Shown one piece after another: positions 863 to 30,643 of a DNA stretch of 64,000 nucleotides (its first letter is position 1; each line of letters starts with the position of its first letter). The position numbers and the translations under genes were made by a program. Origin of the DNA: Croceicoccus marinus (GTDB lineage: Bacteria; Pseudomonadota; Alphaproteobacteria; Sphingomonadales; Sphingomonadaceae); assembly GCF_001661675.2 (NCBI RefSeq), contig NZ_CP019604.1:124001-188000 (forward strand), in the 5' to 3' direction. A model generated the notes under the pieces. It saw only the letters and a program-made list of their open reading frames with translations. It had not been told where the DNA came from and did not search any database.

Positions 863-3800
863 CTACCCAGAAACAACCTCCAACCGACTGCGTCCCGGTG
901 AAAGCTCCTCAACCAGAATCTTCACAGGAATACGCTCTTTCAATTCCTCGACATGGCTGATGACACCGACGCGGCGCCCGGTCGCGTGCAGGTTTTCAAG
1001 GACTGATAATGCTTGCCCCAAACTTGCCGGATCGAGCGAGCCAAAACCCTCGTCGATAAACAGGCTCTCGATCCGGACACCGCGTCCGCTACTCATTTCC
1101 GCAAGGCCCAGCGCAAGGGCGAGACTGACGAGGAAGCGTTCGCCGCCCGACAGATTGTGAAGGCCGCGAACCTGGCCTGCCAGATCGTGATCCACGACCT
1201 GGATCACCATATCGCCGCCGCCGCCGCGCTGCAGGGCATAGCGTGGCTTCAGATCGGACAATCGCGCATTGGCGGCGACAAGCAGACGGTCCAGCGTCAG
1301 CCCTTGTGCATAACGGCGGAAGCGGTTGCCGTTCGCATCCCCGATCAAGCTGCCCAGCTTGAGCCAGGGTTCAGCCTCTTTTTGCCAAGCGGCATGCCGG
1401 GCGCGCAGCGCTGCAGTGCGGCTGCGCAGACTATCGTCGCTGGCGATCCTGCCGTCGATTTCGCTTTTGCGTTCTTCCGCGGCACGACGCTCGGAATTGG
1501 CCTGCTGAAGGGCTTCGATCAGAGCATCCCCCAAGAGGGCAGGGCGGTCGCTTGCCTTGTGCAGAGCCAGATCGCCCCGGCGCCCTTGCAGCGCAGCCTG
1601 CGCGCCGGTGACCGCATCCGAAAGGGCCTGAAGCGCTAGCTCCTCCGCTTCCCGGTCGCCTTCGTTCGCACCGGCAGATTCAATCTCTGTGGCGGTCAGC
1701 TCACTGCGTGCCAACGCAGCGGAGAAGTCGGTGGATTGCTGCTCGGCACTATTGCTGAGCCGGGCGGCTTCGTCACGAGTGACCTCCACTGCCGACTTGG
1801 CCGAGGCCTGTGCCGTTTGCACCTCGCCCAGCTTCTGACGAGCCGTATCCCGATCATTAGTAGCGGCGGATACGCGATTTTGCAGATCGCTTTCCACCTC
1901 GACAACCGCTTTGCCCGAAAGCAAAGGTGCGCGCTCCTCCTCAAGCGCCCGCTTGTCCGCACTGACGCTGTCGCCTTCGCCTTTCTGACTGTCCTGCCGC
2001 GTGCGCGCCACGTTCAGTGCAGTCTGCGTCTCTTCGCGCGCTGCACGAAGGCGGGGGAGGGCGCTCGCGGCGCTCTCGTGCGCAGCCTGAGCGTCATTCC
2101 ATGCTGAAATCTGGCCTTCCAGCCAGCTTTGCGCATCGCCCAGTTGTTGCCAGCCTGCTTCCATGCCGGGCAGGATGTTCAACCTTCGATCCAAGTCTTC
2201 ATCAATGCGCGCGAGCGCTGCCCTGTTCTGCGTTTCGCGCCCTGTCAGCGTAATGACGCGAGCACTAATGGCCTGAAGGGTCCTTTCCGCGTCCTCGGCG
2301 ACGGCACGGGCCGTTTCCAGCGCGGCCAATGCGGCTTGCTCCTTGCTGCGCGTCTGCTCCACGGCCTGCTGCAATCGCCTACCATTTGCCAATTGCTCCG
2401 AGACATTCTTTGTCTGGGATGCAACCAGCGCGTGCAAGTCGTCGTGCTCAGGCTCGATTCCGCAAGCGAGCGTGGCGTTGGCCAGCTGTTCCCATGCCTC
2501 GTCGCGCGCCTTGCCGAGCCTGGCAAGCCGTTCGCCATATTGCGTCACATCGGTCGCCAGCTGCGCGGCCTGGCTCTCGAAAGCGGTGATTTCGCTTTCG
2601 AGCGCGGCGTCGCGCCGTTCCATGTTCTTGAGTTTTGCCTCCAGTGCGTCGGCATGGCCGATGGCTTCGGATACGGGCGCATTTAAGAGTGCGGTCAGCG
2701 TAGCGGCTTCATGTTCGCTCGATCCGCATACAGGGCAAGGCTCTCCGGGTACCAGCGTATCGCGCAAATGCGCCGCAGCCGCATCGCCTGCCAACGACAC
2801 TCGGTCCGCGGTGGTGCGCGCACCCCGGGCCTCTGCTGTGAGCGCTGGGATGCGTTCTGCGAATATGGTCCTTTCATCGCGCGTATCGGCCAGTTTCTGC
2901 GCGGTTTGTTTCTGCCGGTTGCGGCGTTCGTCCAGCGCCTGACTGGCCTCGGACAGCTGGTTTGCAGCACTCTCCACCCCCCGAATGGCGGCGGGAATGA
3001 TCGAGAGGCGCCGATCCCGCTCGCGCAGCTCCTCAAGATGCTGTTCATTCGGTGCTGCCGCTTCAGCGTCTGCCAGCGCATGGCGGTCCGCAGCCAGCGC
3101 CTCTTGCGCCGCGCTCCGTGCCTCGGCGGCCTGCTTCGCACGCGTCTCATTCTGCTCAAGTTCGCTGCGCGCGTTGGCAAGTTCGGACCCGCTGCGCGCC
3201 AGCTGCTCCGTCAATTCGCGATGTTCTGCCAGATCCGCCCGGATTGCATCGCCTTCTCGCGCCAGACTGCGCAGCGCTTCGTGCTCGGTGATCCACTGAG
3301 TGCGGTTAGCCAGTTCGGCTTCGCAGTCCGCGAAAGCTGTATCGGCCGCGGCGAAATTCTCCTCCGCGTCCTCCAGATCCTTGGCCAGCGCGCGGCTGCG
3401 TTCATCGCTCTCGACTACGCGGCGGGTGAGATCGGCGATCCGCTCGTCCAGCGTCCGCGCCTTGGCGATTTCCGGTCGGAGGGCGTCGACTTCAATTTGT
3501 ACCTGCGCCAGAGCGGTCGTCGCCGTGTCTTCAGCTGTGACCGCAGTTTCCAGGGCAAGCGATTGTTTCGCAAGCCTCGCCTCTGCAATTCCGATCCGCT
3601 CCTTCGCCTCTCGCGCTTGGAGCGCCGCCTGCTGCATGGCGCGCCAAGATGGCACCAGCTGGGCTGCGCGCTTCGCTGCCGCTAAGGCGACCCGTCGCGG
3701 TTCAGCCTCGTCCTGCGCCTCTTGCGCGGCCGCTACGGCCTGCTCGGCATCCCGCACGGCGCCAGCCAGCTGCGTGCCGGTCTGATCCCAGCGCTGGGCT

Positions 3801-4564
3801 TCCTGCAAAGTCTCCAGCGCCTGTTGCGCGGTCGATAGTGCTTCGGCGGCCTCGGCGGCGCCGGCTTCGAGCTCGGCGCGTTCCACATCGTTTAGCCCGT
3901 CGAGCGCGCGGATCTGCTCGAGGATGCCGCGCTCCTCCAGCTTCAACTCACTGGCCTTCTGGCCCGCGAGCCGCCCCAGGCGGCTGTAGATGTCGGTACC
4001 GGTGAGTGTTTCCAGCAGTTCGGCCCGCTCGGAATCATTGGCGTTGAGGAATTTCTCGAACTCGCCTTGCGCCAGCACGACAGCGCGCCCGAACTGGTCG
4101 GGGGTAAGTCCGATCAACTTCTCGATCTTGTCCTTGATTATCGTGAGCTTGTCAGGACCGCCTTCGCCGCTCTCGAGATTGATGAGCGAGCGCTCGCGCT
4201 GCTTCAGCGTCCCCGTGCGGGCGCGTTCCACCGACCAGCGCGCCCGCCAGCGCGTTCCGCGCACTTCGAAGTCAGCCTCGGCAAAACAGGAATCGGCGCC
4301 GTGCCGCATGATGGCGCGCACGTCATTGGCCGACAGCTCGTCGCCCGTGCCGGTAATCTTCGAACCCGAACTGGTCGGCCCAAGCCGGGCCATCGTGTCA
4401 AACAGCGCCAGACCCATCGCATCGAGCAGCGTCGACTTTCCTGCACCGGTCGGGCCCGTGATGGCAAAGATCCCGGCGCTTTCCAGCGGCTCGGCGGTAA
4501 AATCGATGTCGAAGGGGGCTTCAAGGCTGGCGAGATTCTCGCCGCGGATGGCCAATATACGCAT
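863..4564 (-). CDS. sbcC: SbcC, ATPase subunit of the SbcCD DNA exonuclease
   Basis: This 1233-residue SMC/Rad50-like protein powers the SbcCD (Mre11-Rad50-type) nuclease, which opens DNA hairpins and processes protein-blocked ends. The N-terminus carries Walker A GPTGAGKST near residue 38. Two long Ala/Glu/Arg-rich coiled-coil arms flank a zinc-hook CPVC at residues 610-613. The C-terminus has the ABC signature LSGGERF and Walker B LFIDEGFGSLD. The length fits the family (about 1000-1250). The ATG overlaps the last base of the sbcD stop, so the two genes are translationally coupled in the usual D-then-C order. No disruption is visible. The antisense frames across it reflect strong third-position GC bias and are not genes. 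Confidence 0.97.
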   Translation of the reverse strand: MRILAIRGENLASLEAPFDIDFTAEPLESAGIFAITGPTGAGKSTLLDAMGLALFDTMARLGPTSSGSKITGTGDELSANDVRAIMRHGADSCFAEADFEVRGTRWRARWSVERARTGTLKQRERSLINLESGEGGPDKLTIIKDKIEKLIGLTPDQFGRAVVLAQGEFEKFLNANDSERAELLETLTGTDIYSRLGRLAGQKASELKLEERGILEQIRALDGLNDVERAELEAGAAEAAEALSTAQQALETLQEAQRWDQTGTQLAGAVRDAEQAVAAAQEAQDEAEPRRVALAAAKRAAQLVPSWRAMQQAALQAREAKERIGIAEARLAKQSLALETAVTAEDTATTALAQVQIEVDALRPEIAKARTLDERIADLTRRVVESDERSRALAKDLEDAEENFAAADTAFADCEAELANRTQWITEHEALRSLAREGDAIRADLAEHRELTEQLARSGSELANARSELEQNETRAKQAAEARSAAQEALAADRHALADAEAAAPNEQHLEELRERDRRLSIIPAAIRGVESAANQLSEASQALDERRNRQKQTAQKLADTRDERTIFAERIPALTAEARGARTTADRVSLAGDAAAAHLRDTLVPGEPCPVCGSSEHEAATLTALLNAPVSEAIGHADALEAKLKNMERRDAALESEITAFESQAAQLATDVTQYGERLARLGKARDEAWEQLANATLACGIEPEHDDLHALVASQTKNVSEQLANGRRLQQAVEQTRSKEQAALAALETARAVAEDAERTLQAISARVITLTGRETQNRAALARIDEDLDRRLNILPGMEAGWQQLGDAQSWLEGQISAWNDAQAAHESAASALPRLRAAREETQTALNVARTRQDSQKGEGDSVSADKRALEEERAPLLSGKAVVEVESDLQNRVSAATNDRDTARQKLGEVQTAQASAKSAVEVTRDEAARLSNSAEQQSTDFSAALARSELTATEIESAGANEGDREAEELALQALSDAVTGAQAALQGRRGDLALHKASDRPALLGDALIEALQQANSERRAAEERKSEIDGRIASDDSLRSRTAALRARHAAWQKEAEPWLKLGSLIGDANGNRFRRYAQGLTLDRLLVAANARLSDLKPRYALQRGGGGDMVIQVVDHDLAGQVRGLHNLSGGERFLVSLALALGLAEMSSGRGVRIESLFIDEGFGSLDPASLGQALSVLENLHATGRRVGVISHVEELKERIPVKILVEELSPGRSRLEVVSG

Positions 4565-5784
4565 CAGGCGTCCTCCTGCCGGGCCGCATCGACCAGTTCG
4601 GCAAAGGCAGACAGAAGCTCAGCGCCGGGATCGCCATGCCCCTGGCCGCGGTAGAGGGCAGAGAAGATCTCGGCGGGTTCCAACTCCTCGATCTGCTTGC
4701 CGTCCCACGGGGAGGGTTCCGCAGACTGATGGACCGATTGCCGCACGATCCGCGTCAGCCGTACAGGCAGGTCGCGGATGGCCTGGTGAATCTCATGCTG
4801 CAGGAACGGCTGCGGCCCATCGGTCGCGACGGTGATTTCGAGGAACGGCCAGAACTCGCGCGGCGTATCGGGATCGAGCTTAGCCGAAAGTGCGTGAAGC
4901 TCTTCCAGCACTTCGCTTAGCGGGGCGCTACCGCGATCCGGAACGGCGATGAACGGGGCAGGGCGGGGGATCGGCTCAAGCTCTACTTCTGCTGCACCTT
5001 CTGCGATGCGCACCACGGCGATGGAGTGGCGATATTCGCGCTCGGTTGCAGAAAAGGGGAAGGGCGAACCCGAATAGCGGATAGGGCAGGGGCCCTTGAT
5101 CTGCTGCGGGCGGTGCAAGTGCCCGAGCGCGACATAGGCGCAGCGACCATCGAACAGGCTCGATGCCTGCGCTTCCTCTCCGCCAACCAGAATATTGCGT
5201 TCCGATCGTTCGGAAATCTCGCCGCCGGCGACGTGTAAATGACCCATGACGATCAGCGGTAGACCGTCAGCGCGGCGGCAGCCCTCTTCGATGATGGCGG
5301 AATAGAGCCCGGACAGGCCCGCCGCGCCATAATCGCCGGGGCGGCAGAACGGCACGGCTGCCACAAGGGCAGAAGGGTCTCCGTTTGAGCCTGCTATCTG
5401 CGCGAAAAGGCGGTCGTGATCCACTTCGCCATCGCGGCGCGGCAGATTGCCGACAAGGTGGAGGCGCTGGCTGTCCACAAGCGCGCCGGGCAGGTCGACG
5501 CGGGCCGCACTGTCGTGATTTCCGCCGGTGATGACAATCTGCAGATCTGGCATCCGTGCCATCGCATCGCGCAGGAAGCGGAACAGGCGCTGGATCGCCG
5601 CGGTGGGCGGATTGGCCACGTCATAGATATCGCCTGCGATCAGCAGGCAATCGGCGCCCAACGCCTCGAGCCGGTCGAGCAGCCAGGCAAGAAACGCGTC
5701 ATGCTCCGCTTCGCGCGGATGGGCGTGGAGTTCGTGGCCGAGGTGCCAGTCTGAAGTGTGAACGATCGTTAGCGGTGTGGTCAT
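4564..5784 (-). CDS. sbcD: SbcD, nuclease subunit of SbcCD
   Basis: This is the Mre11-like calcineurin-fold metallophosphoesterase of the SbcCD complex, about 406 residues. Metal-binding motifs occur in the family order: TSDWHLGH near the N-terminus, IAGDIYD, GGNHDS, then MGHLHV and LGHLHRPQ. The start at 5784 gives MTTPLTIVHTSDW and is preceded by AGGA; the frame can be extended 14 codons upstream, but that part is not conserved in type. The stop overlaps the sbcC start by one base. The upstream region is shared with a divergent HEPN-like gene. Chromosomes usually carry sbcDC, so its presence beside a plasmid-type RepA is a little unusual and may point to a chromid or an integrated element. 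Confidence 0.96.
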   Translation of the reverse strand: MTTPLTIVHTSDWHLGHELHAHPREAEHDAFLAWLLDRLEALGADCLLIAGDIYDVANPPTAAIQRLFRFLRDAMARMPDLQIVITGGNHDSAARVDLPGALVDSQRLHLVGNLPRRDGEVDHDRLFAQIAGSNGDPSALVAAVPFCRPGDYGAAGLSGLYSAIIEEGCRRADGLPLIVMGHLHVAGGEISERSERNILVGGEEAQASSLFDGRCAYVALGHLHRPQQIKGPCPIRYSGSPFPFSATEREYRHSIAVVRIAEGAAEVELEPIPRPAPFIAVPDRGSAPLSEVLEELHALSAKLDPDTPREFWPFLEITVATDGPQPFLQHEIHQAIRDLPVRLTRIVRQSVHQSAEPSPWDGKQIEELEPAEIFSALYRGQGHGDPGAELLSAFAELVDAARQEDA

Positions 5785-5985
5785 TCCTGTCCTTTCGCCG
5801 CTCCGTGTAGGATTGCAAAACGACAAAACCGGTCATGCCCGCCGCTATGATGAATTTTCCACGAACTTATGCGGTAACGAGAGCATGTTCCCCCTTAAGC
5901 TGCGGAAATTTGGGCCTACCCCTTGGGATGTGCTGGAAATCGTACGCCTTTTGGCGCAATTTCCGGTCGCAAGGGGGAGTTGGAA

Positions 5986-6657
5986 TTGCCGCAGACCTAT
6001 CCGGCGGGACACCCGCTGCACGCCGCTAGTCTCAAGACAAAGCAGCGCGAACTCCGCGCCGGTTTTGCCGAGCCGTTGACGCTTCGCGTCCATCGCGCGC
6101 TTAGTTGGCTTCTGCGGGCCGAAAATGAAAACGACGATCAGGACGTACGCTTCATCTTGCTATGGATCGGCTTCAATGCTGCCTATGCAGGCAATCTCGA
6201 CGAGGCGCGCGAGCGCGACCATCTGCGCAACTTCTTCGAGACGATGGTGAAGCTCGATGGACAGAGCCGCATCTACAACATGGTGTGGCAGCGTTTCAGC
6301 CAGGAAATCCGCGTGCTGCTGGACAATAAGTACGTGTTCGCGCCGTTCTGGTCTTATCACAACGGTGCCGATGAGCATGCCGATTGGGCGGAGAAATTGG
6401 ACCGTGCCTACCATAATAGTCGACATGCGCTGGAGGCGCAGGACACGCCGCGGATTCTCTCCATCGTGTTCGACCGGCTTTATGTCCTTCGCAACCAGCT
6501 GGTGCACGGCGGGGCGACGTGGAACAGCAGTGTCAACCGCGATCAGGTCCGCGATGGTGCGGCGATTCTAAGCTGCTTGCTGCCGGTGTTCATTGATTTG
6601 ATGATGGACAACCCGGACGAGGAATGGGCGATGCCGCACTATCCGGTAGTAGAGTAA
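5986..6657 (+). CDS. HEPN-like domain protein, function unknown
   Basis: This is a predicted soluble protein of about 223 residues. Near the C-terminus it has the motif RNQLVHGG, which matches the Rx4-6H active-site pattern of HEPN ribonuclease domains and lies in a helical context. HEPN proteins are common as RNases in toxin-antitoxin and antiphage systems; whether this one is active is unknown. I chose the TTG at 5986 because GGGGGAG lies six bases upstream. A TTG at 5980 and one at 5923 are in the same frame, so the true start is uncertain. The next gene follows after 15 bp, so the two are probably co-transcribed. Confidence 0.6.
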   Translation: MPQTYPAGHPLHAASLKTKQRELRAGFAEPLTLRVHRALSWLLRAENENDDQDVRFILLWIGFNAAYAGNLDEARERDHLRNFFETMVKLDGQSRIYNMVWQRFSQEIRVLLDNKYVFAPFWSYHNGADEHADWAEKLDRAYHNSRHALEAQDTPRILSIVFDRLYVLRNQLVHGGATWNSSVNRDQVRDGAAILSCLLPVFIDLMMDNPDEEWAMPHYPVVE

Positions 6658-7092: not shown

Positions 7093-7106
7093 GGCCAAAG
7101 CTCATC

Positions 7107-7135
7107 TTGCCAAATATTGCCAAACCGCTCATATT
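7107..7135 (+). promoter_or_regulatory. Probable sigma70 promoter for the first ParDE module
   Basis: TTGCCA at 7107-7112 and CATATT at 7130-7135 are separated by exactly 17 bp. They lie just before the ParD start. The match to consensus is moderate. Confidence 0.4.
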
Positions 7136-7143
7136 CCGCACTA

Positions 7144-7368
7144 ATGGGAACGATGAACATCTCTCTACCCGATCAGCTGCGTGACTGGGTCGATGGTCAG
7201 GTCCAGGCGCGTGGCTATGGCAACACCAGCGAATATGTCCGCGAGCTGATCCGCCGCGACCGCGAACGCGAACGGCTGCGCGGGTTGCTGCTCGATGGTG
7301 CGCAGTCGCCGATTGGGCCGGTCGCAGACGAAGCTTTCTTCGACGGCTTGCGCGCCCGCGCATCCTGA
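7144..7368 (+). CDS. ParD-family antitoxin (module 1)
   Basis: A 74-residue ribbon-helix-helix antitoxin. MNISLPDQLRDWVD near the N-terminus forms the DNA-binding strand and helix. The segment GYGNTSEYVRELIRRD is the hallmark of the ParD/CopG antitoxin family. The variable C-terminal tail should bind and block the ParE toxin encoded 3 bp downstream, and the complex normally represses its own promoter. ATG codons at 7144 and 7153 are both possible; the first is used here. Confidence 0.88.
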   Translation: MGTMNISLPDQLRDWVDGQVQARGYGNTSEYVRELIRRDRERERLRGLLLDGAQSPIGPVADEAFFDGLRARAS

Positions 7369-7371
7369 CGA

Positions 7372-7710
7372 ATGGCCACGCGTCGCGTCGTCCTGCGCGA
7401 AGCGGCGCGCGGCGATCTGGAACAGGCAACCGACTGGCTGATGAGTGAATCAGGGCGCAATACAGCGGTCGCTTTCATCGATGCTGTGCAGGCCGCGATG
7501 CGCCGGATTATAGAACGTCCCGGAACCGGCTCTCCGCGGTGGTCGCATGAGCTGAACCTGCCCGGTCTGCGATCCATGCGGGTCAAGGGGCATGACTGGA
7601 TGGTCTTCTACATCACCCGTCACGACCATATCGATGTATGGCGAGTGCTGCATGGCGCGCGCGATATCGGCGGCGTCTTGGGCGATCCGAGTGAGGGTGC
7701 GGAGCACTGA
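7372..7710 (+). CDS. ParE/RelE-superfamily toxin (module 1)
   Basis: A 112-residue toxin of the ParE/RelE fold. It begins with the family-typical pattern RVVLREAARGDLEQATDWL. In the middle it has ERPGTGSPR, and near the end LRSMRVKGHDWMVFYI followed by a strand pattern ending in VLHGARDI. ParE toxins inhibit DNA gyrase. The gene lies 3 bp behind the antitoxin, the normal order for parDE. It is full length with no visible damage. Such modules stabilise plasmids and islands, which fits this region. Confidence 0.85.
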   Translation: MATRRVVLREAARGDLEQATDWLMSESGRNTAVAFIDAVQAAMRRIIERPGTGSPRWSHELNLPGLRSMRVKGHDWMVFYITRHDHIDVWRVLHGARDIGGVLGDPSEGAEH

Positions 7711-7791
7711 TCGATCCACTGAATCAGTTGGTCCGCACTGATTCAGAATTCCCGTTGGCCAAGCCCGCTGCCACTCGGCACCATCGCCCGC

Positions 7792-8058
7792 ATGGACCTG
7801 TGGGAGGACATCACCATTTATTGGGAAGCGCGTGATCCGGCGCGAAACATGACGCGGTTCTACCGTGTGTCCGTGTCGACCGACCTGTTCGGCGTAGCTA
7901 TTGTAGAGCGTGCGTGGGGTCGCTGCGGATCACGGCCCCGCAATATGCGGCAATCGTTTTCTTCGCGTGCCGATGCAGAGGCGGCAATGCGGCAGGTCTA
8001 TGCTCGAAGGGCAAGCGCACGGCAGCGGATCGGCACCGATTACAAAATGGTGGCGTGA
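7792..8058 (+). CDS. Stand-alone WGR-domain protein
   Basis: An 88-residue protein made almost only of a WGR domain. An FYRVSVSTDLFG strand is followed by VERAWGRCGSRPRN, which contains the diagnostic W-G-R, and then by FSSRADAEAAMRQVYARR. WGR domains bind nucleic acid ends or RNA in PARP proteins, and occur alone in bacteria. The gene lies 56 bp upstream of the tandem AAA+ ATPase on the same strand, so it may be a DNA-sensing or accessory subunit of that cassette. Similar single WGR proteins are also common beside repA or mobilisation genes, so the link is an inference. Confidence 0.8.
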   Translation: MDLWEDITIYWEARDPARNMTRFYRVSVSTDLFGVAIVERAWGRCGSRPRNMRQSFSSRADAEAAMRQVYARRASARQRIGTDYKMVA

Positions 8059-8114
8059 AGCGCCGAAAGTGAACTACGACCGGTTCTGCCGTCAGTCTGC
8101 GTCAAACCCGACCT

Positions 8115-10127
8115 ATGACGAATCGACATGCCTTGGACTGCGCTTCCCACGATCTCGAAAAGGCGGAGCTGGACATCCTGCTCTTAACGATCGCCGAGAC
8201 GATTGAACGGATGGGGACATACCAGCGCCATGTCGTGGGCAAATCCCTCCTGTGCGAATTGTCGGACAGGTTCGGAATCGATGCAGGCTGGCTTGGCCTG
8301 CATGATCGGCACAAGACCAGCGCCAGGGCGGCGCAGATTCTCCAGCTTGTCCCCGCGATTATTCGCGCGCGGAAGCTCCGGCGCAGGTCCAATGCGCTGG
8401 ACAAACGGATGGATTGGTTGGGGCGGGCCTTCGGGCTCGACCGGGTCGAACGGGATGGGCTGAATATTCTGGCCAGGTTAGAGCTGTTTCCCGAATGGCG
8501 CTCGCTCGTCGAATCCATCATTCGGTCGGGTCATCTTACCCTTGATTTGCTGGCGAAGATGACGGGGCATGGCAAGGGCGTCCTTGACCAAAGATTCCAC
8601 GCAGGGTCGCGTTTGGTTCGGGCTGGTCTGATCCACAGCGATGCCGATGGCGACATCCGTGTCGGCCAATTTCTTGCCAGGCTCACGCGCATGAGGCTGT
8701 CGCGGCCCGAGGCGTTGACCGAAAGGTTGATGCCTGAAGCAGGGCCGTCGCGATTGGGCCATCACGACTTCGCGCACCTTGGGCGTGAGGCGGAGTTGGC
8801 TCTTTCCCTTGTCGCAGCGCGCAAGGGAGCGTCGATCCTGCTTTATGGCCCGCCCGGAACCGGCAAGACCGAATTCGCGCTGCATATTGTTCGATCCGCA
8901 GGGCTCATACCCGTAATGGCCGGCATGACAGATGAACACGGTGACGAACCCAATCGCAGGGACCGTATAGCTCATGTTACGCTTCTGCGCGAGCTGACCC
9001 GGGGGCAGGAGAGTCATGCGATCATCGCGGACGAGGCCGACGATATCCTGCATTATGACTGGAGCAGCGATTCGCGGAACAGCTTTTCCAAGGCTTGGCT
9101 CAACGCCTTTGTCGATGCCCCCGGACCGCCGACGATCTGGATCGTCAACGATGTCAGTTCGCTTGCCGAAACGACGGTACGGCGGATGGATCATGCCGTG
9201 CGCTTCGATTTGCCTCCCGCCGCCGTTCGTCGCCGCATAGTAGGGCGCCATGCTCGTATTGCGGGACTGGCTTTGACCGGCGTGCAAACATCCGCGCTCG
9301 CCGCGCTTCCCGCTTCGCCGGCGGTGCTAGAAACGGCGGTATCAGGGGCCGCAACGATCGGCGGTGGCATTGAGGATGCGCAGCTTATTGGCAGCGGACT
9401 GGTCGAGGCGTTGACGGGCAGTCCGCCGCCGCCGTTTTCGCTGCCTGCGGCTTATGATCCGGAACTCGCCCGCGCGGATCGCGACCTAACTGATCTGGCC
9501 AGGCGTCTCGCCAGTTCTGCTGACAGGAGCTGGAGCTTGCTGTTCCACGGCGCTTCGGGCACCGGGAAAAGCGCCTTTGCGCATTATGTGGCCAGTGCAA
9601 TGGGCCTGGATATCCAGGTCGAACGGGGTTCCGACCTGCTCGATTCCTATGTCGGCGGGACCGAGCGGTTGATCGCCGCCGCCTTTCACCGGGCCGCCCG
9701 TCAAAAAGCGGTGTTGCTGATCGATGAGGCGGATGACTTTCTTTCGGACCGCCGCGGCGCGGTGCGAAGCTGGGAACGAACGATGGTATCCGAAATGCTG
9801 CGGCAGATGGAGGCGCTGCGCGCCCCTTTCATCGCCACTTCCAATCTTGCCGACCGGCTCGACCCTGCCACGCAGCGCAGGTTCACCCTGCAAGCCGAGT
9901 TTAAAGTGTTGGACGAGGGTCGGGCCAATACACAGTTTCGTAGATGGTTCGGCATCGATTCACCCAGCGCGATGCCGCTCGTGGGCCTTACGCCCGGTGA
10001 TTTCGCGCAGGTTTCGCGCCGCGCCAGATTGCTTGGAGAGAATGGGGCGGACCGATTGGCGCGATGGTTGCTAAACGAGGCGCGCGCACGCGGCGCTGTC
10101 AGACAGCCGCTTGGATTTCGCGCATGA
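8115..10127 (+). CDS. Tandem AAA+ ATPase (two ATPase modules)
   Basis: A 670-residue protein. Residues 1-215 have no recognised domain. They are followed by two AAA+ modules. Module 1 has Walker A YGPPGTGKT at about 245-252 and Walker B IIADEADDIL near 303-312. Module 2 has Walker A HGASGTGKS near 479-486, Walker B VLLIDEADDFL near 533-543, a sensor-1-like ATSNLADRLD, and QRRF as a probable arginine-finger region. Both modules keep the key Lys and Asp-Glu residues, so both look able to use ATP. The layout recalls Cdc48/FtsH-type remodelling ATPases, but the N-terminal domain is different. The stop overlaps the start of a PD-(D/E)XK nuclease gene (ATGA), which argues for a functional complex. 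I infer a defence or DNA-processing role. Confidence 0.85.
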   Translation: MTNRHALDCASHDLEKAELDILLLTIAETIERMGTYQRHVVGKSLLCELSDRFGIDAGWLGLHDRHKTSARAAQILQLVPAIIRARKLRRRSNALDKRMDWLGRAFGLDRVERDGLNILARLELFPEWRSLVESIIRSGHLTLDLLAKMTGHGKGVLDQRFHAGSRLVRAGLIHSDADGDIRVGQFLARLTRMRLSRPEALTERLMPEAGPSRLGHHDFAHLGREAELALSLVAARKGASILLYGPPGTGKTEFALHIVRSAGLIPVMAGMTDEHGDEPNRRDRIAHVTLLRELTRGQESHAIIADEADDILHYDWSSDSRNSFSKAWLNAFVDAPGPPTIWIVNDVSSLAETTVRRMDHAVRFDLPPAAVRRRIVGRHARIAGLALTGVQTSALAALPASPAVLETAVSGAATIGGGIEDAQLIGSGLVEALTGSPPPPFSLPAAYDPELARADRDLTDLARRLASSADRSWSLLFHGASGTGKSAFAHYVASAMGLDIQVERGSDLLDSYVGGTERLIAAAFHRAARQKAVLLIDEADDFLSDRRGAVRSWERTMVSEMLRQMEALRAPFIATSNLADRLDPATQRRFTLQAEFKVLDEGRANTQFRRWFGIDSPSAMPLVGLTPGDFAQVSRRARLLGENGADRLARWLLNEARARGAVRQPLGFRA

Positions 10128-10894
10128 CGCGGTATTGCGGCGTGATGGGGCGCAATGAATATACCGCTGTCGCTGCCTTGCCGCGCAGCTGCGATCTGGA
10201 TCACGTTCGCCGTTGGATGGCGTTGCACCCGAACGGGTATCGTCAGGCGATAAACAAGATCGGCAATGCACCGACGCTTGCAAAGCGGCCCGCCGAAGAG
10301 CTGGGCGATGCGAGACGATGGTTCGGCATAACGGACAGAATTCATCCTTTTGCCTGCGAGACACCGCAATGGCTTAGCCTGACCGAAACGCAAGTCATGG
10401 CAGGCATCAAACATTATTTGAACATGGGGCCACCAGCCAGAACGATTACCTTCATGAAGGCTGCGGCACCGTGGATGGCGTGGCCCGCTATGCTATCGCA
10501 GATCGAGATCTTGACCGAGGTTCCGACCGGCAAAGGCGGGCGGATCGATCTCTTGGTGATGGGGGTTTCCGACGGGTGCGCCTGGGGGCTCGCGGTCGAA
10601 GCCAAGTTTGGTGCAAGCCTCGCTCACAACCCGCTTTCCCATTATAGAAAATGTGCTTCTAAAAGCCTTGGCAGGAAAGCGATCGGGGCCGGTTTTGCCA
10701 ATAGTACCAGGCTCGCACTGATCGTTGCCGCGCCAAAAAAGCAATCGATCATCAAAAGCCGTCTCACTTGGAACAAGGATTGGCGTTTCATGGCGTGGAG
10801 CTCGTTGCTTGCTCGTTTCGAGCGCCTTTTGGACCAGACCGACAACGACGCCGAGTTCGCGCATTTTCGAAAACAGATATGGGATTGCCTGTGA
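10124..10894 (+). CDS. PD-(D/E)XK-superfamily nuclease
   Basis: A 256-residue protein with a PD-(D/E)XK nuclease core. GGRIDLLVMG supplies the Asp at about residue 141, and GLAVEAKFG supplies the Glu and Lys at about 159 and 161, spaced by a short beta hairpin as in the family. LSHYRKC follows, where helix contacts are expected. The ATG at 10124 overlaps the TGA of the AAA+ gene by four bases, so translation is coupled. Its own stop overlaps a GTG start in the same way. The pairing suggests that the AAA+ motor positions or gates this nuclease. Its target (phage, plasmid or self DNA) cannot be read from the sequence. Confidence 0.75.
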   Translation: MTRYCGVMGRNEYTAVAALPRSCDLDHVRRWMALHPNGYRQAINKIGNAPTLAKRPAEELGDARRWFGITDRIHPFACETPQWLSLTETQVMAGIKHYLNMGPPARTITFMKAAAPWMAWPAMLSQIEILTEVPTGKGGRIDLLVMGVSDGCAWGLAVEAKFGASLAHNPLSHYRKCASKSLGRKAIGAGFANSTRLALIVAAPKKQSIIKSRLTWNKDWRFMAWSSLLARFERLLDQTDNDAEFAHFRKQIWDCL

Positions 10895-11466
10895 CCGAGC
10901 CTTTTACCGTACCGGAAACCGTCAGCACTTGTTTCTCCGACAAGGCCCTGACCGCTGCCGTCGAGGAAATCCTCGCCGACAGGAAATTCCCTGCCGCGAT
11001 CGAGTGGGATGAGGTCGAGTCATTTCTCAAGGCACGTGCTTCGGCAGAAGCGGTCCGCTGGGATTATTCGCTCGCGCTCTATCGATTTTTCGAGGCGGTG
11101 TGGGGAGATCGCGCGGACTGGATACGCGATCCGGTGGATATGACAGTATCGGACACGGGCTTCGCGGCTGCAGAGCTTTGGGACGATGGGGAGATTAGCG
11201 TAAGATATACAGACGGCGACAGGTCGATCTATCTGCTGGCCGGTTTTGATTCAGGAGAGACCTGGATCGGCATTTGTCCGATAAACAAAAACGGTAAGGC
11301 GTACGAGGATTGGACGGTTGACGGTTTCGCCTGGGACGAGGACGAAGAATATTTCATGCGCAGTTGGAAGCCGAGTGTCGCCGTCGACGACCAGCTGGCC
11401 ATCCACGTCAAGGACGCCGCTGATAGAGCTTTCGAAATAGTGACAGGTCTCTACAGCTCGTATTAA
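10891..11466 (+). CDS. Hypothetical protein, third gene of the AAA+/nuclease operon
   Basis: A 191-residue acidic protein that I do not recognise. The GTG at 10891 overlaps the nuclease stop (GTGA), so it is the fourth member of a tightly packed cassette. The frame continues upstream inside the nuclease gene, but the overlap favours the GTG. No catalytic motif, membrane span or signal peptide is visible; the mid-part (YLLAGFDSGETWIGICPIN) looks like beta-rich globular protein. It could be an inhibitor, sensor or structural subunit of the operon. An IS66 element lies about 200 bp downstream and does not cut the gene. Confidence 0.65.
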   Translation: MTEPFTVPETVSTCFSDKALTAAVEEILADRKFPAAIEWDEVESFLKARASAEAVRWDYSLALYRFFEAVWGDRADWIRDPVDMTVSDTGFAAAELWDDGEISVRYTDGDRSIYLLAGFDSGETWIGICPINKNGKAYEDWTVDGFAWDEDEEYFMRSWKPSVAVDDQLAIHVKDAADRAFEIVTGLYSSY

Positions 11467-16865: not shown

Positions 16866-19800
16866 ATGGCAAACCGATACCAAGATCGCGAACTCGACGC
16901 TGCGCGCGAGAGTCTAAAATCACTGAACGACAAGAGCGAACGCTTGCGGACGAAGGGGGGAAACCTTGACCGCGACGGAGAGCCCCGCTTGACCGCAACG
17001 CGTGAAAGTTCATCCTTCACACCATTGTCGTCCGATCCTTCAGCCGCGGCGCGCAAAAGCTTGCGAGGCGCTGATGGTCTGGACATGCCTCCACGGACAG
17101 CGTTCGCGCTCGGCGATCGCCATATCACTGGCGCCGTTGGCAGAGGAGCCGTCCGGCAGCAGAAGTCGGTCGGTTTGCTCGAGCTCGAGGGGCAAAAGAA
17201 AGGCGAAGAGGCTTCGCGTCGTTTCACCAAGCTGAACATTCCGGCCGCGAGGCCGCTCCGCGCTTCGAATGCAGCTGGCGCGACGAGCTTCCATTTTTCG
17301 CACGAGGCGATCAGCAAGACTCGCGCGGAGAAAGTCACCGCCCGCGGCACCAAGAACCGGAAAGGCGCAGCCGCCGATCACGCCAGCTATATCGAACGCG
17401 ACGGCGCTGTCGCCAAAGGCGATCAGACGGAACTCGACAAGATCCAGGCTGAGCTTCTCGAGCAGGCGAAGAACAACCCCGAACTGGCGCGCAGCCTGTC
17501 CCTCGACCCGACGTCAGCCGAGGGAGCCTCGCAGGAGCCCGCTCAGCCACTCTCTGATGATCTTGGCGCCGGAGGTAGGGCGAGCGTCTACATCGAGCGC
17601 GAAAAGGCCCTGGCGCACGATGCAAACGGATCCGCAGTCTTGTTCTCGAACATCTCTGATGATCCTGTCGAGCGCCGCGAATTCTGGAAGCTGGTCGAAC
17701 GAGCCGAAAGCAATCCCTCTGCCGACAAAATGCAACTCCGCATGGCCGGCAACGAAGAGTTCTGGTCGAAGGTTGCTGCTGACAAGGACTGCCCTAAGCC
17801 CGTTCGAGATGCGATCGAAGCGGCCGATCCCAACGAGATCGTCAAGATTTCTACCCGCGATAACGACGCCGTCCGTGCGATCATGAAGCGCCATGGCTGG
17901 AAGCCTCGTGAACGCCGGCCAGCCAATGAAACCGACGACCGGAAAGAGGCCCGCGAAGAACGCGAAGCCGCGGCCAGCTGCGGCGCTAAATTTGAAGACG
18001 GTCGGGGCGGCCGTGTCCAGTTCAGAATTGTCGGCGAATTGCCGCACGAAGTGTCTCACGAAGCCCGCGTTCGGATCCTCAAAGACTTTACACGCGAGTT
18101 CGAAGCGCGAAACCTGCCGCATATCGCGGTCATGCACGCACCAGATCATACGAACGATGATCGAAACTGGCACTTTCATCTCGTTTATCATGACCGGCCG
18201 GTCCGCCGCTTTACTGGACTTGCAGAGGACCACCTTAAAGAGCTCCCACTAAAAGCGGGATCGAAGACCGTCCGCCAACACGAAATCATGGCCGAAGCGA
18301 TCAACGATCCTGCCATCCAGAAGCATGTGGGGTCCTGGGACTTCACCGTGCCTTGGTCATATCGCAAAGCAAACCGTCACACGATGACAACGACACCATT
18401 CGCCCAAATGAAGGACCGAGACTGTAACAAGCGCGATTTCATACCGCTGCTACGTCGCAACCTTGCGCATCTCACCAATCGCGAACTTGAGGCTGAAGGC
18501 ATCGACCGCCGGGTCGACCCGCGTCGATATTCGGTGATGGGGATCCACAAGGAGAGCGACGAGCATCTTGGCACCCAGGCTGCTTCGCTCGAATCGAACG
18601 GCGTGCCCACCGAGATCGGGGTTCGCAACGAGGCGAACCAGTGGGAGTTCATCCAGCGCAAACTCGAGGCACAATCCCGTGCCGACCAGGCGAGGATCGA
18701 CCAGCAGCTCAAGGTCTGGCGCGCTGGCCTCAGCGCTGCCCAGCTATCCGACCAGGATCGTAAAGACGCCGACCGTGAGCTGATCCGCTGGGAGCAATCG
18801 GAACGCGTCGCTGCCGAGCACCGCGCGATCGCAAAGCAGATGGCCGAGAATATCGACCGCCTTCGCTCGCGTGGGAACAAGGTTGCAAAGATGGCGAAGA
18901 AGCATCTGGGGGCCATCGAAGACGGACGCGCGACCAAGCGACAGCAGTCCAGCAAGCCCCGATATCAAGCCAAGCTCACCGAGGCCGAGATGCATCTTGC
19001 CGGTCTCGAGATCATGATGGGCCAAGAGATCTCGCAGATTGCCACCAGCAATGAAGCCGCCATGCGTCATTCGCGCACCGCCGAGACCGCAAAGCTCGTG
19101 ATCGAAGGCCACATCGAACTTGGCGGCCAGTTGCGCAGGTCCAACGAGCAATCTGCAGCGCCAGCCCACGCCAACGACCCCCAGCTAGCAAACGCACAAA
19201 CTGCCGACCCAAAACCGGCAGTCGCTGCTCCTGTGGTCGGCAACTCGACCATCGACAGTTACATCAATAGGATCGTCGAACTCAATCGTCGTCTGGTCCC
19301 AAGCCAGAAGGGCATCGTGCCGCGCGATCGCGTATCCACGGACATGCCGATCATCAACGCGCCAAACTATGCCTCCGCGCAGACGCGCCTCGCCAAGATC
19401 ATGGATCACCAGCAGGCCGCGATCGGCAATCTCCTTTCGGCATTCCAAAGGAACCCGCGCATGGTGCAGTTCCGCCAGGAGCCGACCGACCTACATTACA
19501 TGCTCACCAATGCCGAGCGTTTCAAAATCGGGACGCCCGATCGCGCGATGCAGGCAGCGTTCGTGAACTTTGCTGAAGAACCCGAGATCGTTGCCGAATT
19601 GAAGAAGGCGGAAGCCCGCCTGCTCAATGAACGCGCAGCGAAGTCGGTGCAGGCGTTTATGGCCAAAGCCGCAGATAAAATCGTCCAGCCTTCTGCGTCC
19701 GTTGAAGCTTCAAAACCTCCCCATGCCAAAGCACCCGAGAAGTCGCACGCGCCCAAGCCTGCCCACGATTACTCGCGCATCATCGAAACGATGCGGGCAA

Positions 19801-20678
19801 AACACCTCCGGCCTAAGGTCGCGAAGACAGATGCCGGCATCGAGGTCAGCTTCAGCAAAGCCGACGCAGCGCTATACGACCTGCCTGCGAACCTGGTCGT
19901 TGACGACGCTCGTTCGATTTCACGGATCGAAGGGATCGCGCGAACGCATGATCGAGCAGTCAAGCGCCTGATCTCGTACATGGCGAAGTACCCGTCCAAG
20001 GTCCAAGCAGGCGAGAATGGCCAGGCTCATAAGCTTGCCGCCACAGCTCCTTCGGAACTGCTCGACATCTCGAAGCAATTCTCGCGCGATCCTGAAGTCA
20101 CCCAGGCAATGCAAAATGCTCTCGTCAAAGCGCGCATGGAAGCTCTCGATCGGCGCAAAGCAGCTGCAACCGAAAAGCCCGCGGCGCCCGAACCCCAAAA
20201 GGGCGGGGAAGGGGACTTCGGTCTCTTCAAGATCGAAGACGGCAAGATCGTCATGCCTACCCAGGATCTTCCCGACGTCGAAATTCCCGACTGGCGAACC
20301 TACGAGCCGAGCGGATACGGCAATCGCGCGCCCAGGAAGGACGAGGATCAGAAACCCAAAGAGCGCGAGCGCGCCACCATCAGGATCGACCCGTCGCGCG
20401 CCCACGAACTTGCGAGCTCGAACGAGCCTGCACAGACCCGCACGCTCACGCTTGGTATCGATCCGATCTTCGACCGCTGGATCGAGGTCAACAATTCCGG
20501 CGACCGTGAAGAGCGAGCAAGGCTATCAGCGCTCATCCGGCAGGATGAAAAGCTTCGTGAAATCGCGCAGTCTGTCGAACCTGGCTTCGCCGCGAGCTTC
20601 AAGGCGGACTGGGAGCGCCATGATGACCAGATGCGGAACAGGTTTCCGCTACCGCCGAATCTCGGCCTCGAACTGTGA
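16866..20678 (+). CDS. MobA/MobL-type relaxase, large form
   Basis: A 1270-residue protein that should nick oriT and pilot the strand into a recipient. The three-histidine metal motif of MobA/MobL relaxases is present at about residues 422-445: MHAPDH, then RNWHFHLVYHDRP. It is preceded by the family pattern VQFRIVGELPHEV. The HUH motif lies unusually deep, behind about 400 extra residues. Those residues include ASYIERDGAV near 170, a possible site of the catalytic Tyr. The remainder is long, charged and helical, and ends in a conserved-looking tail (RLSALIRQDEKLREIAQSVEP) that reappears as a fragment at 38.7 kb. No coupling protein or type IV secretion genes are in the window, so mobilisation in trans is possible. 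Confidence 0.85.
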   Translation: MANRYQDRELDAARESLKSLNDKSERLRTKGGNLDRDGEPRLTATRESSSFTPLSSDPSAAARKSLRGADGLDMPPRTAFALGDRHITGAVGRGAVRQQKSVGLLELEGQKKGEEASRRFTKLNIPAARPLRASNAAGATSFHFSHEAISKTRAEKVTARGTKNRKGAAADHASYIERDGAVAKGDQTELDKIQAELLEQAKNNPELARSLSLDPTSAEGASQEPAQPLSDDLGAGGRASVYIEREKALAHDANGSAVLFSNISDDPVERREFWKLVERAESNPSADKMQLRMAGNEEFWSKVAADKDCPKPVRDAIEAADPNEIVKISTRDNDAVRAIMKRHGWKPRERRPANETDDRKEAREEREAAASCGAKFEDGRGGRVQFRIVGELPHEVSHEARVRILKDFTREFEARNLPHIAVMHAPDHTNDDRNWHFHLVYHDRPVRRFTGLAEDHLKELPLKAGSKTVRQHEIMAEAINDPAIQKHVGSWDFTVPWSYRKANRHTMTTTPFAQMKDRDCNKRDFIPLLRRNLAHLTNRELEAEGIDRRVDPRRYSVMGIHKESDEHLGTQAASLESNGVPTEIGVRNEANQWEFIQRKLEAQSRADQARIDQQLKVWRAGLSAAQLSDQDRKDADRELIRWEQSERVAAEHRAIAKQMAENIDRLRSRGNKVAKMAKKHLGAIEDGRATKRQQSSKPRYQAKLTEAEMHLAGLEIMMGQEISQIATSNEAAMRHSRTAETAKLVIEGHIELGGQLRRSNEQSAAPAHANDPQLANAQTADPKPAVAAPVVGNSTIDSYINRIVELNRRLVPSQKGIVPRDRVSTDMPIINAPNYASAQTRLAKIMDHQQAAIGNLLSAFQRNPRMVQFRQEPTDLHYMLTNAERFKIGTPDRAMQAAFVNFAEEPEIVAELKKAEARLLNERAAKSVQAFMAKAADKIVQPSASVEASKPPHAKAPEKSHAPKPAHDYSRIIETMRAKHLRPKVAKTDAGIEVSFSKADAALYDLPANLVVDDARSISRIEGIARTHDRAVKRLISYMAKYPSKVQAGENGQAHKLAATAPSELLDISKQFSRDPEVTQAMQNALVKARMEALDRRKAAATEKPAAPEPQKGGEGDFGLFKIEDGKIVMPTQDLPDVEIPDWRTYEPSGYGNRAPRKDEDQKPKERERATIRIDPSRAHELASSNEPAQTRTLTLGIDPIFDRWIEVNNSGDREERARLSALIRQDEKLREIAQSVEPGFAASFKADWERHDDQMRNRFPLPPNLGLEL

Positions 20679-20755
20679 TGAGCGGTGTCAGGTCAATTTG
20701 AAGCTTCATGATCCGTCGCCGATGACCTGTCGTCAAAGTGAATCAAGGCGAATGG

Positions 20756-20857
20756 CTTGGTCTGGGACATTCCTGCCGGTCGGCGCCGCGACTGGGAACG
20801 TCCGGTTACTCCGACAGCGGCCATTCGTGGATCCGCTTACTCCTCTTCTCCCAGGTC
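20756..20857 (+). repeat. Dispersed ~100-bp intergenic repeat, copy A
   Basis: This stretch lies in the 573-bp gap behind the relaxase gene. It begins with TTGGTCTGGGACATTCCTGC and ends near CTTCTCCCAGGTC. Related copies lie at 25691-25788 and 32773-32875 on the opposite strand. No open frame is shared between copies, so it looks non-coding. The rest of the gap (20679-21251) shows no gene. Confidence 0.7.
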
Positions 20858-24100: not shown

Positions 24101-25552
24101 CTATGTCGGCATTCGGCAGGACCAGCCATAAGGGAACCTGACGCTCGCTATGCCCTTGGCAGGCTTGCCATAGCTGAAGGTGAGCAGCCGGCGCGGGATC
24201 ACCAGCTGACGCGCAATCCAGTCCTCGAAATCATCGCGATCCAATGTGCGGTGCACGATCTTGTCGCCCTCTTTGAAATCGGCGTCGACCGAACCGAGCA
24301 CGTTGGCGCCTCCGACGAAAATCTTCTTCACCGCATTGTCTGCCTTGGCGTCGAGCGTCACATCGACGGCGGTCGGCTGTTCCTTGCCCGGCAACACATG
24401 GAAGCGCCCGATTTCGGGCAGGAGGCAGCGCGAGATGAAGGCAAAGCTGTCCGCGAACTCCTTGTGCTTCTGCAGCGCGAACACCTCGTTGAACTTGTCG
24501 TCCTTCGGATCGTCGCGAACCTCACCGGCACTATCAAAGAAGATCTCGAAGAGCATGCCGTCGAGCAAGGCCTTGCGCTTGACGCCCGGCACAGCGGTCG
24601 TGCGATCGGCGAACGCGTTGATGAACCCGACCGCGGAATTCGAATGGCCGCACGCCGACTGATAAATATTGCGGCCCAGGACGAACAGGGAATCGGTGGC
24701 GAACTTCGCCAGCACCGGCCCCTTCAGGGTGTCGATCGCCGGGTTCTGGGTGGGCCAAGTGAGCGACTTCAGCTTCTTGATGGCTTTGTGCGAGGTGCGC
24801 GCCTCGTCAAGCACGAACAGGGCATCGCTCAGTGCGGTCGGACCATATTCGGTGATCAGCTTCGCAATGCCGAGGTTGAAGTAGAACTCACCGGCGAGCG
24901 AAGTGTGCTCCCAAGAGATCTGTTTGCCGCTGGTGGCCGCGCTGAGCGTATTGCGCACGCGCTTGAACATCGCTTCGATCGAGCAGTCCTGCGCGTCGAT
25001 ATGCTCGAGGAGGGCTGCGGTATAGGCGCCATTGCGGCCCTTGCCGTCGTCGGCGAACTGGCCGGGCGAAGTCGAAAAGGCGATCATGGTGCCGCGCGGC
25101 GCGTAGACGGCAGCAAGCCCCCTCGCCACGCCGCGGTGCCAGCTCCGTTCGAATGGATTGTCGCGACAGGCGTCGAGGATGATGATGTTGGTGGAGGTGT
25201 CGGTCTTCTCCATCTGGGCGATCACGCGATTGAGGGACAGCGAGCTGTGCTTGGCATCGATCTCGTCCTCGACCTCGGTATCAACGGCCGCGAGATAATT
25301 GTCGCCGTCGATCTGAAAGCCGTGCCCCGCAAAAAAGAACAGCCCGACGTCTTGGTCGGCGAGCGTCGCTTTGAAACGCTTCAGGGTCTTGTCCATCTGC
25401 CGATGGGTGGCATCGTTCAGAAGTGTGACGTCGAACCCGCAGCGCTCGAGCACCTCGGCGACATCTTCCGCGTCATGACCCGGATTCTTGAGCTTGCTGG
25501 CATGGGCGTATTTCGCGTTGCCGATGACGAGGGCGGAGAGGGATCTGGACAT
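24101..25552 (-). CDS. Caspase-like (peptidase C14) family protein
   Basis: A 483-residue protein with an N-terminal caspase-fold protease. SALVIGNAKYAHASKLKNPGHDAEDVAEVL opens the domain. The catalytic dyad is His77 in FFFAGHGFQ and Cys129 in ILDACRDNPF. AFSTSPGQFADDGKGRNGAYTAALL follows, as in bacterial caspase-like proteins. Residues of about 230-483 form a second domain that I do not recognise. The start at 25552 (MSRSLSALV) fits the domain edge; the open frame extends 32 codons upstream. In bacteria such proteases are often cell-suicide effectors in defence systems. No paired sensor such as a cyclase or STAND protein lies beside it, so activation is unknown. Confidence 0.85.
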   Translation of the reverse strand: MSRSLSALVIGNAKYAHASKLKNPGHDAEDVAEVLERCGFDVTLLNDATHRQMDKTLKRFKATLADQDVGLFFFAGHGFQIDGDNYLAAVDTEVEDEIDAKHSSLSLNRVIAQMEKTDTSTNIIILDACRDNPFERSWHRGVARGLAAVYAPRGTMIAFSTSPGQFADDGKGRNGAYTAALLEHIDAQDCSIEAMFKRVRNTLSAATSGKQISWEHTSLAGEFYFNLGIAKLITEYGPTALSDALFVLDEARTSHKAIKKLKSLTWPTQNPAIDTLKGPVLAKFATDSLFVLGRNIYQSACGHSNSAVGFINAFADRTTAVPGVKRKALLDGMLFEIFFDSAGEVRDDPKDDKFNEVFALQKHKEFADSFAFISRCLLPEIGRFHVLPGKEQPTAVDVTLDAKADNAVKKIFVGGANVLGSVDADFKEGDKIVHRTLDRDDFEDWIARQLVIPRRLLTFSYGKPAKGIASVRFPYGWSCRMPT

Positions 25553-25690
25553 CTGACCTGGCTGCTGATGAGAGGAAGCGGGTTGACTATCATTGCCCAG
25601 TTCGACCCGATCCACCAGTAATGTGGTTATCGCCGCACCTTCCGCCAAGCGCTTGGTAAAATGTCACGCAGCACGCCGAAAGGCATCAGC

Positions 25691-30635: not shown

Positions 30636-30643
30636 GGCGCCCC

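Follow-up and report, generated by a model that had tools for sequence, protein, structure and literature searches.

A 64,000-nucleotide stretch of Croceicoccus marinus DNA (the window; positions 124001-188000 of the 346,204-base replicon C3, which appears plasmid-like from its size and a relaxase gene) carries four consecutive genes that encode a small WGR protein, a tandem AAA+ ATPase related to Cdc48, a PD-(D/E)XK nuclease (NUC) and an acidic partner protein (P3). Judged from sequence, this cassette is probably an unnamed antiviral module, given that relatives of its ATPase adjoin many different defence-type genes. We suspect, with a probability of roughly 40%, that NUC and P3 form an exchangeable module of a basic nuclease and an acidic, inhibitor-like partner, served by the Cdc48-like unfoldase and located in a defence island where Gabija is encoded too. 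Equally tentative is the view that the cassette acts as an effector module against phages or plasmids, built from three pieces that evolve separately. A preliminary description of this DNA had proposed a new defence cassette of four genes; the defence reading survives, but one conserved four-gene system does not, and the ATPase family, with its interchangeable neighbours, is the object of more interest. If the reading is correct, an unnamed nuclease-partner pair is added to the defence repertoire, and bacteria are shown to employ a Cdc48-type unfoldase as a common motor for interchangeable effectors. Unfoldases of this type are familiar mainly from protein quality control in eukaryotes and archaea.

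The four open reading frames lie on the forward strand exactly as first described. The WGR gene (7792-8058; 88 amino acids, pI 10.4) is followed after 56 bp (8058 to 8115) by the ATPase gene (8115-10127; 670 amino acids), which overlaps the NUC gene (10124-10894; 256 amino acids, pI 9.7) by ATGA at 10124-10127, with the NUC start codon inside the overlap. NUC in turn overlaps the P3 gene (10891-11466; 191 amino acids, pI 4.2) by GTGA at 10891-10894. This arrangement goes beyond chance: relatives of the ATPase, NUC and P3 with open frames reach down to 17-30% identity, and the same overlaps recur in another genome, G1300, at 45-63% protein identity.

What is conserved more deeply is the NUC-P3 pair, which we found in 10 loci: the window, L116 (in G1300), L003 (G138), L008, L009, L084 (G761), L085 (G878), L086 (G554), L087 (G457) and L099 (G1108). 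P3 is the next gene after NUC in all 10, on the same strand and overlapping it or a few bases away, which is the linkage of a toxin-antitoxin or nuclease-immunity pair. Weak partial matches to the NUC profile in L088, L089 and L090 (E 7e-5 to 1e-3; 425-468 amino acids), with no P3 in their 11-kb stretches, were not counted, nor was a match in G1304 (E 1.5e-4). The Asp and Glu-x-Lys reported for the nuclease are borne out, as D142, E159 and K161 do not vary among the 10 aligned NUC sequences and fall in the core fold. NUC relatives are 245-295 amino acids long, and the window copy scores 18.8 bits against PDDEXK_4, below the 22.3-bit cut-off of that curated family.

The charges of the two proteins are also conserved. 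The pI of P3 is 4.2-4.9 in 10 of 10 loci and that of NUC is 8.7-9.8 in nine, with 6.9 in L116. In our Pfam, PADLOC and NCBIfam scans, which covered chosen proteins including the four encoded upstream of the cassette, P3 matched no family above the Pfam cut-off and nothing in PADLOC at E 0.1; it has a weak type III-chaperone-like fold. Given its acidity, its pairing with a basic nuclease and this fold, we infer that P3 may be an immunity protein or inhibitor. The sensor role, offered as an alternative in the preliminary description, fits less well. The pair is rare. NUC was found in 6 of 398 genomes of a draw from the phylum (three strong matches, the window's own included), in 3 of 14 genomes of the genus (one match weak) and in 2 of 72,556 plasmid records, and P3 in 3 of 385 genomes of a draw from the class and in 2 of 293 from the class of G761.

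Two loci with near-identical ATPases, L002 and L003 (tree path about 0.06), show the pair as a replaceable unit. Upstream, 3.05 kb of their DNA is 90.7% identical, and the 2.97 kb that begin shortly before the ATPase gene are 91.4% identical, whereas a slot of about 1.4 kb 5' of the ATPase gives no blastn match between them at E 1e-10. In L002 the slot holds an open reading frame resembling the uracil-DNA glycosylase (UDG) superfamily (25.2 bits, cut-off 24.3), and in L003 it holds NUC-P3. This difference is direct evidence for cassette exchange of NUC-P3, and the two loci amount to a natural experiment in which almost the same ATPase and flanks carry two different cassettes. Elsewhere, NUC-P3 lies within 1 kb of the ATPase in 4 of its 10 loci (the window, L116, L003 and L099). 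In L009, 2.9 kb separate the pair from the ATPase, which is encoded on the other strand, and in L008 the pair stands behind McrB- and McrC-like genes instead of the ATPase. L085 is a 5.6-kb contig, and three such ATPases are encoded on other contigs of its genome. In G761, G554 and G457, which hold NUC-P3, the ATPase has no more than partial AAA matches of a generic kind, which suggests that another trigger can serve the pair.

The ATPase itself is Cdc48-like by its sequence. It scores 105.5 bits against PF00004 across two stretches, and VCP and CDC48 chains rank first in a profile search of the PDB. Both AAA modules keep Walker A and Walker B, as had been noted from the window alone: G245/G248/G250/K251 and D306/E307, and G479/G482/G484/K485 and D537/E538, are invariant in 31 aligned rows, the window included. 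Both modules also have arginine pairs. An aromatic pore loop in the second module (D2), a feature of protein translocation, has the form [YWF]-[VLI]-G-x-[TS]-E in 28 of the 31 rows, again including the window; its aromatic-V-G part is also present in L007 and L048, and the loop is absent in L074. The N-terminal region is possibly a winged helix, from a weak match to PF22977 (22.9 bits, below the cut-off of 27). The protein reaches no NCBIfam cut-off among the 25 of 48 families listed for it.

The neighbours of this family vary widely. Among 39 distinct ATPase loci (40 less L054, a copy from G138 whose gene map agrees with that of L003 and is counted with it), and as lower bounds within 8 kb because fetched flanks were about 4-8 kb, we found WYL regulators in at least 13, DUF2779 in at least eight, ORF5923-like genes (see below) in at least seven, ADP-ribosylglycohydrolase-like genes in at least six (one a 96-amino-acid frame), TM0106-type nucleases in at least five, RtcB and NOV_C in at least four each, RtcA and NUC in at least three each and McrB-like genes in at least two. 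Sir2 is annotated beside the ATPase of L007. The association of ATPase relatives with UDG-like proteins, McrBC, nuclease-helicases, ADP-ribosylglycohydrolases and Sir2 is what would be seen if the ATPase were an exchangeable hub. RtcB, RtcA or both lie within 1.4 kb of ATPase relatives on the same strand in L058, L061, L072, L073 and L009, a link for which the nuclease model gives no explanation. The greedy longest-frame caller took antisense frames in L043 and L063, which hold a family ATPase and are absent from the 39 loci and the tree, and other neighbours may be miscalled for the same reason.

On the ATPase tree (42 rows, also leaving out the fragmentary L047 and members with less than 60% query cover), the NUC-P3 label falls on five rows, L009 included, and needs at least four changes. 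Such a number is expected if the pair moves. As few changes were needed in 80 of 500 label shuffles, and the label therefore does not cluster significantly. The preliminary description had treated ATPase and nuclease as a set; their homologues turn out to be largely apart, with 24 ATPase matches covering at least 400 residues in 296 genomes of the order, as against NUC in 2 of the 296.

The survey of gene neighbourhoods gives the four-gene cassette partial support. The whole set in the same order was found in one other genome, G1300, which belongs to the same genus and carries it at the same syntenic site (L116). The order there is SbcCD, ORF5923, WGR, ATPase, NUC and P3, with both the ATGA and GTGA overlaps kept. 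Protein identity to the window is 90% for SbcD and 88.5% for ORF5923, and it falls to 55% for WGR, 63% for the ATPase, 45% for NUC and 46% for P3. At the DNA level, identity is 81% over window positions 1117-6653, 72.5% over 7104-7928 (from ParDE into WGR), 68% in the ATPase gene, 66% in the P3 gene and 74% over the 144 bp right after P3, and there is no DNA match in NUC. We take this to mean that the cassette diverged, or was exchanged, faster than its upstream flank. ATPase, NUC and P3 also occur in that order, lacking WGR, in G1108, which is outside the class of the window. At the same site in G1306 the WGR gene is kept (97%) and the first part of the ATPase gene alone remains, disrupted by a roughly 0.8-kb insert (L115 669-1469) that has similar inverted ends and an 8-bp repeat on both sides. 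The rest of the cassette is missing from that site and NUC is absent from the genome; DNA of the relaxase region (16882-20777) is 82% identical in G1306.

The WGR gene has a wider distribution of its own. Its product passes the PF05406 cut-off of 22 with 51.6 bits and has no PADLOC match at E 0.1. It is not specific to the set: a relative is encoded in 523 of 72,556 plasmid records, no relative of the cassette ATPase occurs in any of six WGR plasmid neighbourhoods (2.5 kb on each side), and partition, replication or toxin-antitoxin genes occur in five of the six. Since the ATPase and NUC are largely found apart and the WGR gene is unspecific, we distinguish three parts: NUC-P3, a promiscuous Cdc48-like ATPase and a separate WGR gene.

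A palindrome at 7720-7745, TGAATCAGT-N8-ACTGATTCA, begins 72 bp before the WGR start and is the sole such site in the window (expected 0.01). It was matched in 17 of 124 fetched loci, all of them WGR loci. A form of it occurs at -73 to +56 bp of the first possible start in 13 of 18 distinct WGR frames, and three of the five without it are short (46-72 amino acids). A stricter pattern, run against 60 genomes, gave only three sites, each preceding a WGR gene; nine of the same genomes have a WGR match. The arms read GAATC/GATTC in the window and in 12 other WGR loci, and are thus GANTC sites, the methylation motif of CcrM. The palindrome is probably the operator of the WGR gene and perhaps controls the whole cassette as well. 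In this scenario, WGR and its putative operator would be a self-contained plasmid unit that now heads the cassette operon.

We envisage the cassette as follows. P3 would restrain or chaperone NUC, as an immunity protein would, and the ATPase, a double-ring unfoldase of the Cdc48/p97 kind (hexameric by analogy) joined to its effector by overlapping genes, may extract or unfold P3 or another bound protein once infection is sensed, so that NUC is released or positioned. The small WGR protein, drawn from a common plasmid pool, likely regulates the operon or senses nucleic acid, and may take the place held by WYL regulators in other ATPase loci. A more general proposal is that bacterial Cdc48-like double-ring unfoldases form a defence hub, in which an infection-triggered ring strips acidic inhibitors from exchangeable effectors (here P3 off NUC) and the cassette in the adjacent slot decides whether the motor fires a nuclease, a glycosylase, an McrBC machine or an NAD-directed enzyme. 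We consider this generalization quite unlikely as it stands.

Alternatively, NUC-P3 could be a two-subunit restriction enzyme, perhaps modification-dependent, with P3 as a specificity or assembly subunit rather than an inhibitor and with the ATPase remodelling protein-DNA complexes. Like the cassette, McrBC and other type IV restriction systems combine an AAA+ motor with a PD-(D/E)XK nuclease, and NUC-P3 stands behind McrB- and McrC-like genes in L008; they differ in that NUC lacks a PF10117 match and the cassette ATPase is closest to CDC48-type proteins. We regard a restriction enzyme as unlikely on balance. Just as doubtful is the view that there is no single machine at all, and that a defence island has gathered WGR, ATPase and NUC-P3 as independent genes for defence or plasmid functions, which share a transcript by chance. 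Each piece is indeed found without the others, the window holds further defence genes and NUC-P3 has no preferred branch on the ATPase tree. However, chance stacking sits poorly with the retention of both overlaps in G1300 despite the divergence of the proteins, and with the fact that NUC-P3 adjoins a family ATPase in two gene orders and on separate branches (the window with L116; L003; L099). That the set serves plasmid maintenance or conjugation control, such as the exclusion of competing plasmids, with WGR linking it to transfer, seems improbable even with a MobA/MobL-type relaxase gene 5.4 kb downstream of P3 (16866-20678, forward strand, 1270 amino acids), WGR relatives on many plasmids typed conjugative (244 of the 523 records), NUC-P3 loci L008 and L009 on plasmids typed conjugative and mobilizable, and a Rhizobium plasmid WGR gene that a passage of PMC13055273 lists beside traG and as rising together with the transfer genes when rcgR is mutated, given that the NUC-P3 neighbours read are WYL regulators (L009, L086, L087), transposases (L084) and McrBC (L008), not transfer genes.

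No named system matched the cassette in our scans. The absence of a named counterpart, suggested in the preliminary description, holds for WGR and P3, and for the ATPase in so far as its AAA domains alone match named defence proteins. NUC matches the core of one defence candidate, which also favours the earlier reading. That candidate is PDC-S26, a PADLOC family of PD-(D/E)XK proteins, whose nuclease core is matched by L084 (44.8 bits), L009 (38.3 bits) and the window NUC (20.4 bits). These matches are partial, covering 56 of 358 positions for the window NUC and up to 168 of 400 for L084, and the profiles (351-415 positions) are longer than NUC, which is followed by P3. IetAS shares with the cassette a classical AAA+ ATPase gene beside a gene for a hydrolytic effector, and its profiles give the highest scores of the ATPase for any named system (84.4 bits for PADLOC IetA; 81.7 bits for NCBIfam IteA, aligned to part of the sequence, against a cut-off of 510 bits). 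The IetA profiles have 262-395 positions, compared with 670 amino acids in the cassette ATPase. The partner of the IetAS ATPase is a subtilisin-like protease, whereas the cassette has a nuclease as effector, paired with an acidic protein, and none of WGR, NUC, P3 and the four scanned upstream proteins matched a protease family in Pfam. Cdc48/p97 (VCP) has in common with the ATPase the tandem D1-D2 modules, Walker A and B, arginine pairs and the aromatic D2 pore loop; a possible difference is its N-domain, which does not appear among the 25 of 39 Pfam families listed for the cassette ATPase, where the sub-threshold winged-helix match is found instead. Nuclease-immunity and toxin-antitoxin pairs resemble NUC-P3 in joining a mostly basic nuclease to a linked acidic partner, but differ in that an ATPase gene is attached to NUC-P3 in some loci and neutralization by P3 is putative.

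The setting of the cassette agrees in part with the toxin-antitoxin and defence-rich region next to mobilization genes that had been described. A ParD-ParE toxin-antitoxin pair (7117-7710, forward strand) lies directly upstream and is not judged part of the cassette. Besides the relaxase gene, the downstream region encodes on the reverse strand a 515-amino-acid protein with a caspase-like match (24101-25648; PADLOC PDLC02987, 43.9 bits), GajB (28812-30635; 772.6 bits) and GajA (30644-32518; 883.6 bits). The Gabija pair at 28812-32518 looks complete and speaks for a defence role of the region.

Further upstream, ORF5923 (5923-6657, forward strand, 244 amino acids) may be another component of the cassette. 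A similar gene lies upstream of the ATPase on the same strand in 7 of the 39 distinct ATPase loci, and also in L116 and L100; relatives in seven ATPase loci (L116, L003, L002, L005, L052, L042 and L100) are 50-89% identical to the window copy. Pfam gives no match for the protein at E values of 1 or less. The block FDRLYVLRNQ-x2-HGGATW is invariant in the family and contains an RNQ-x2-H motif, which resembles that of HEPN proteins.

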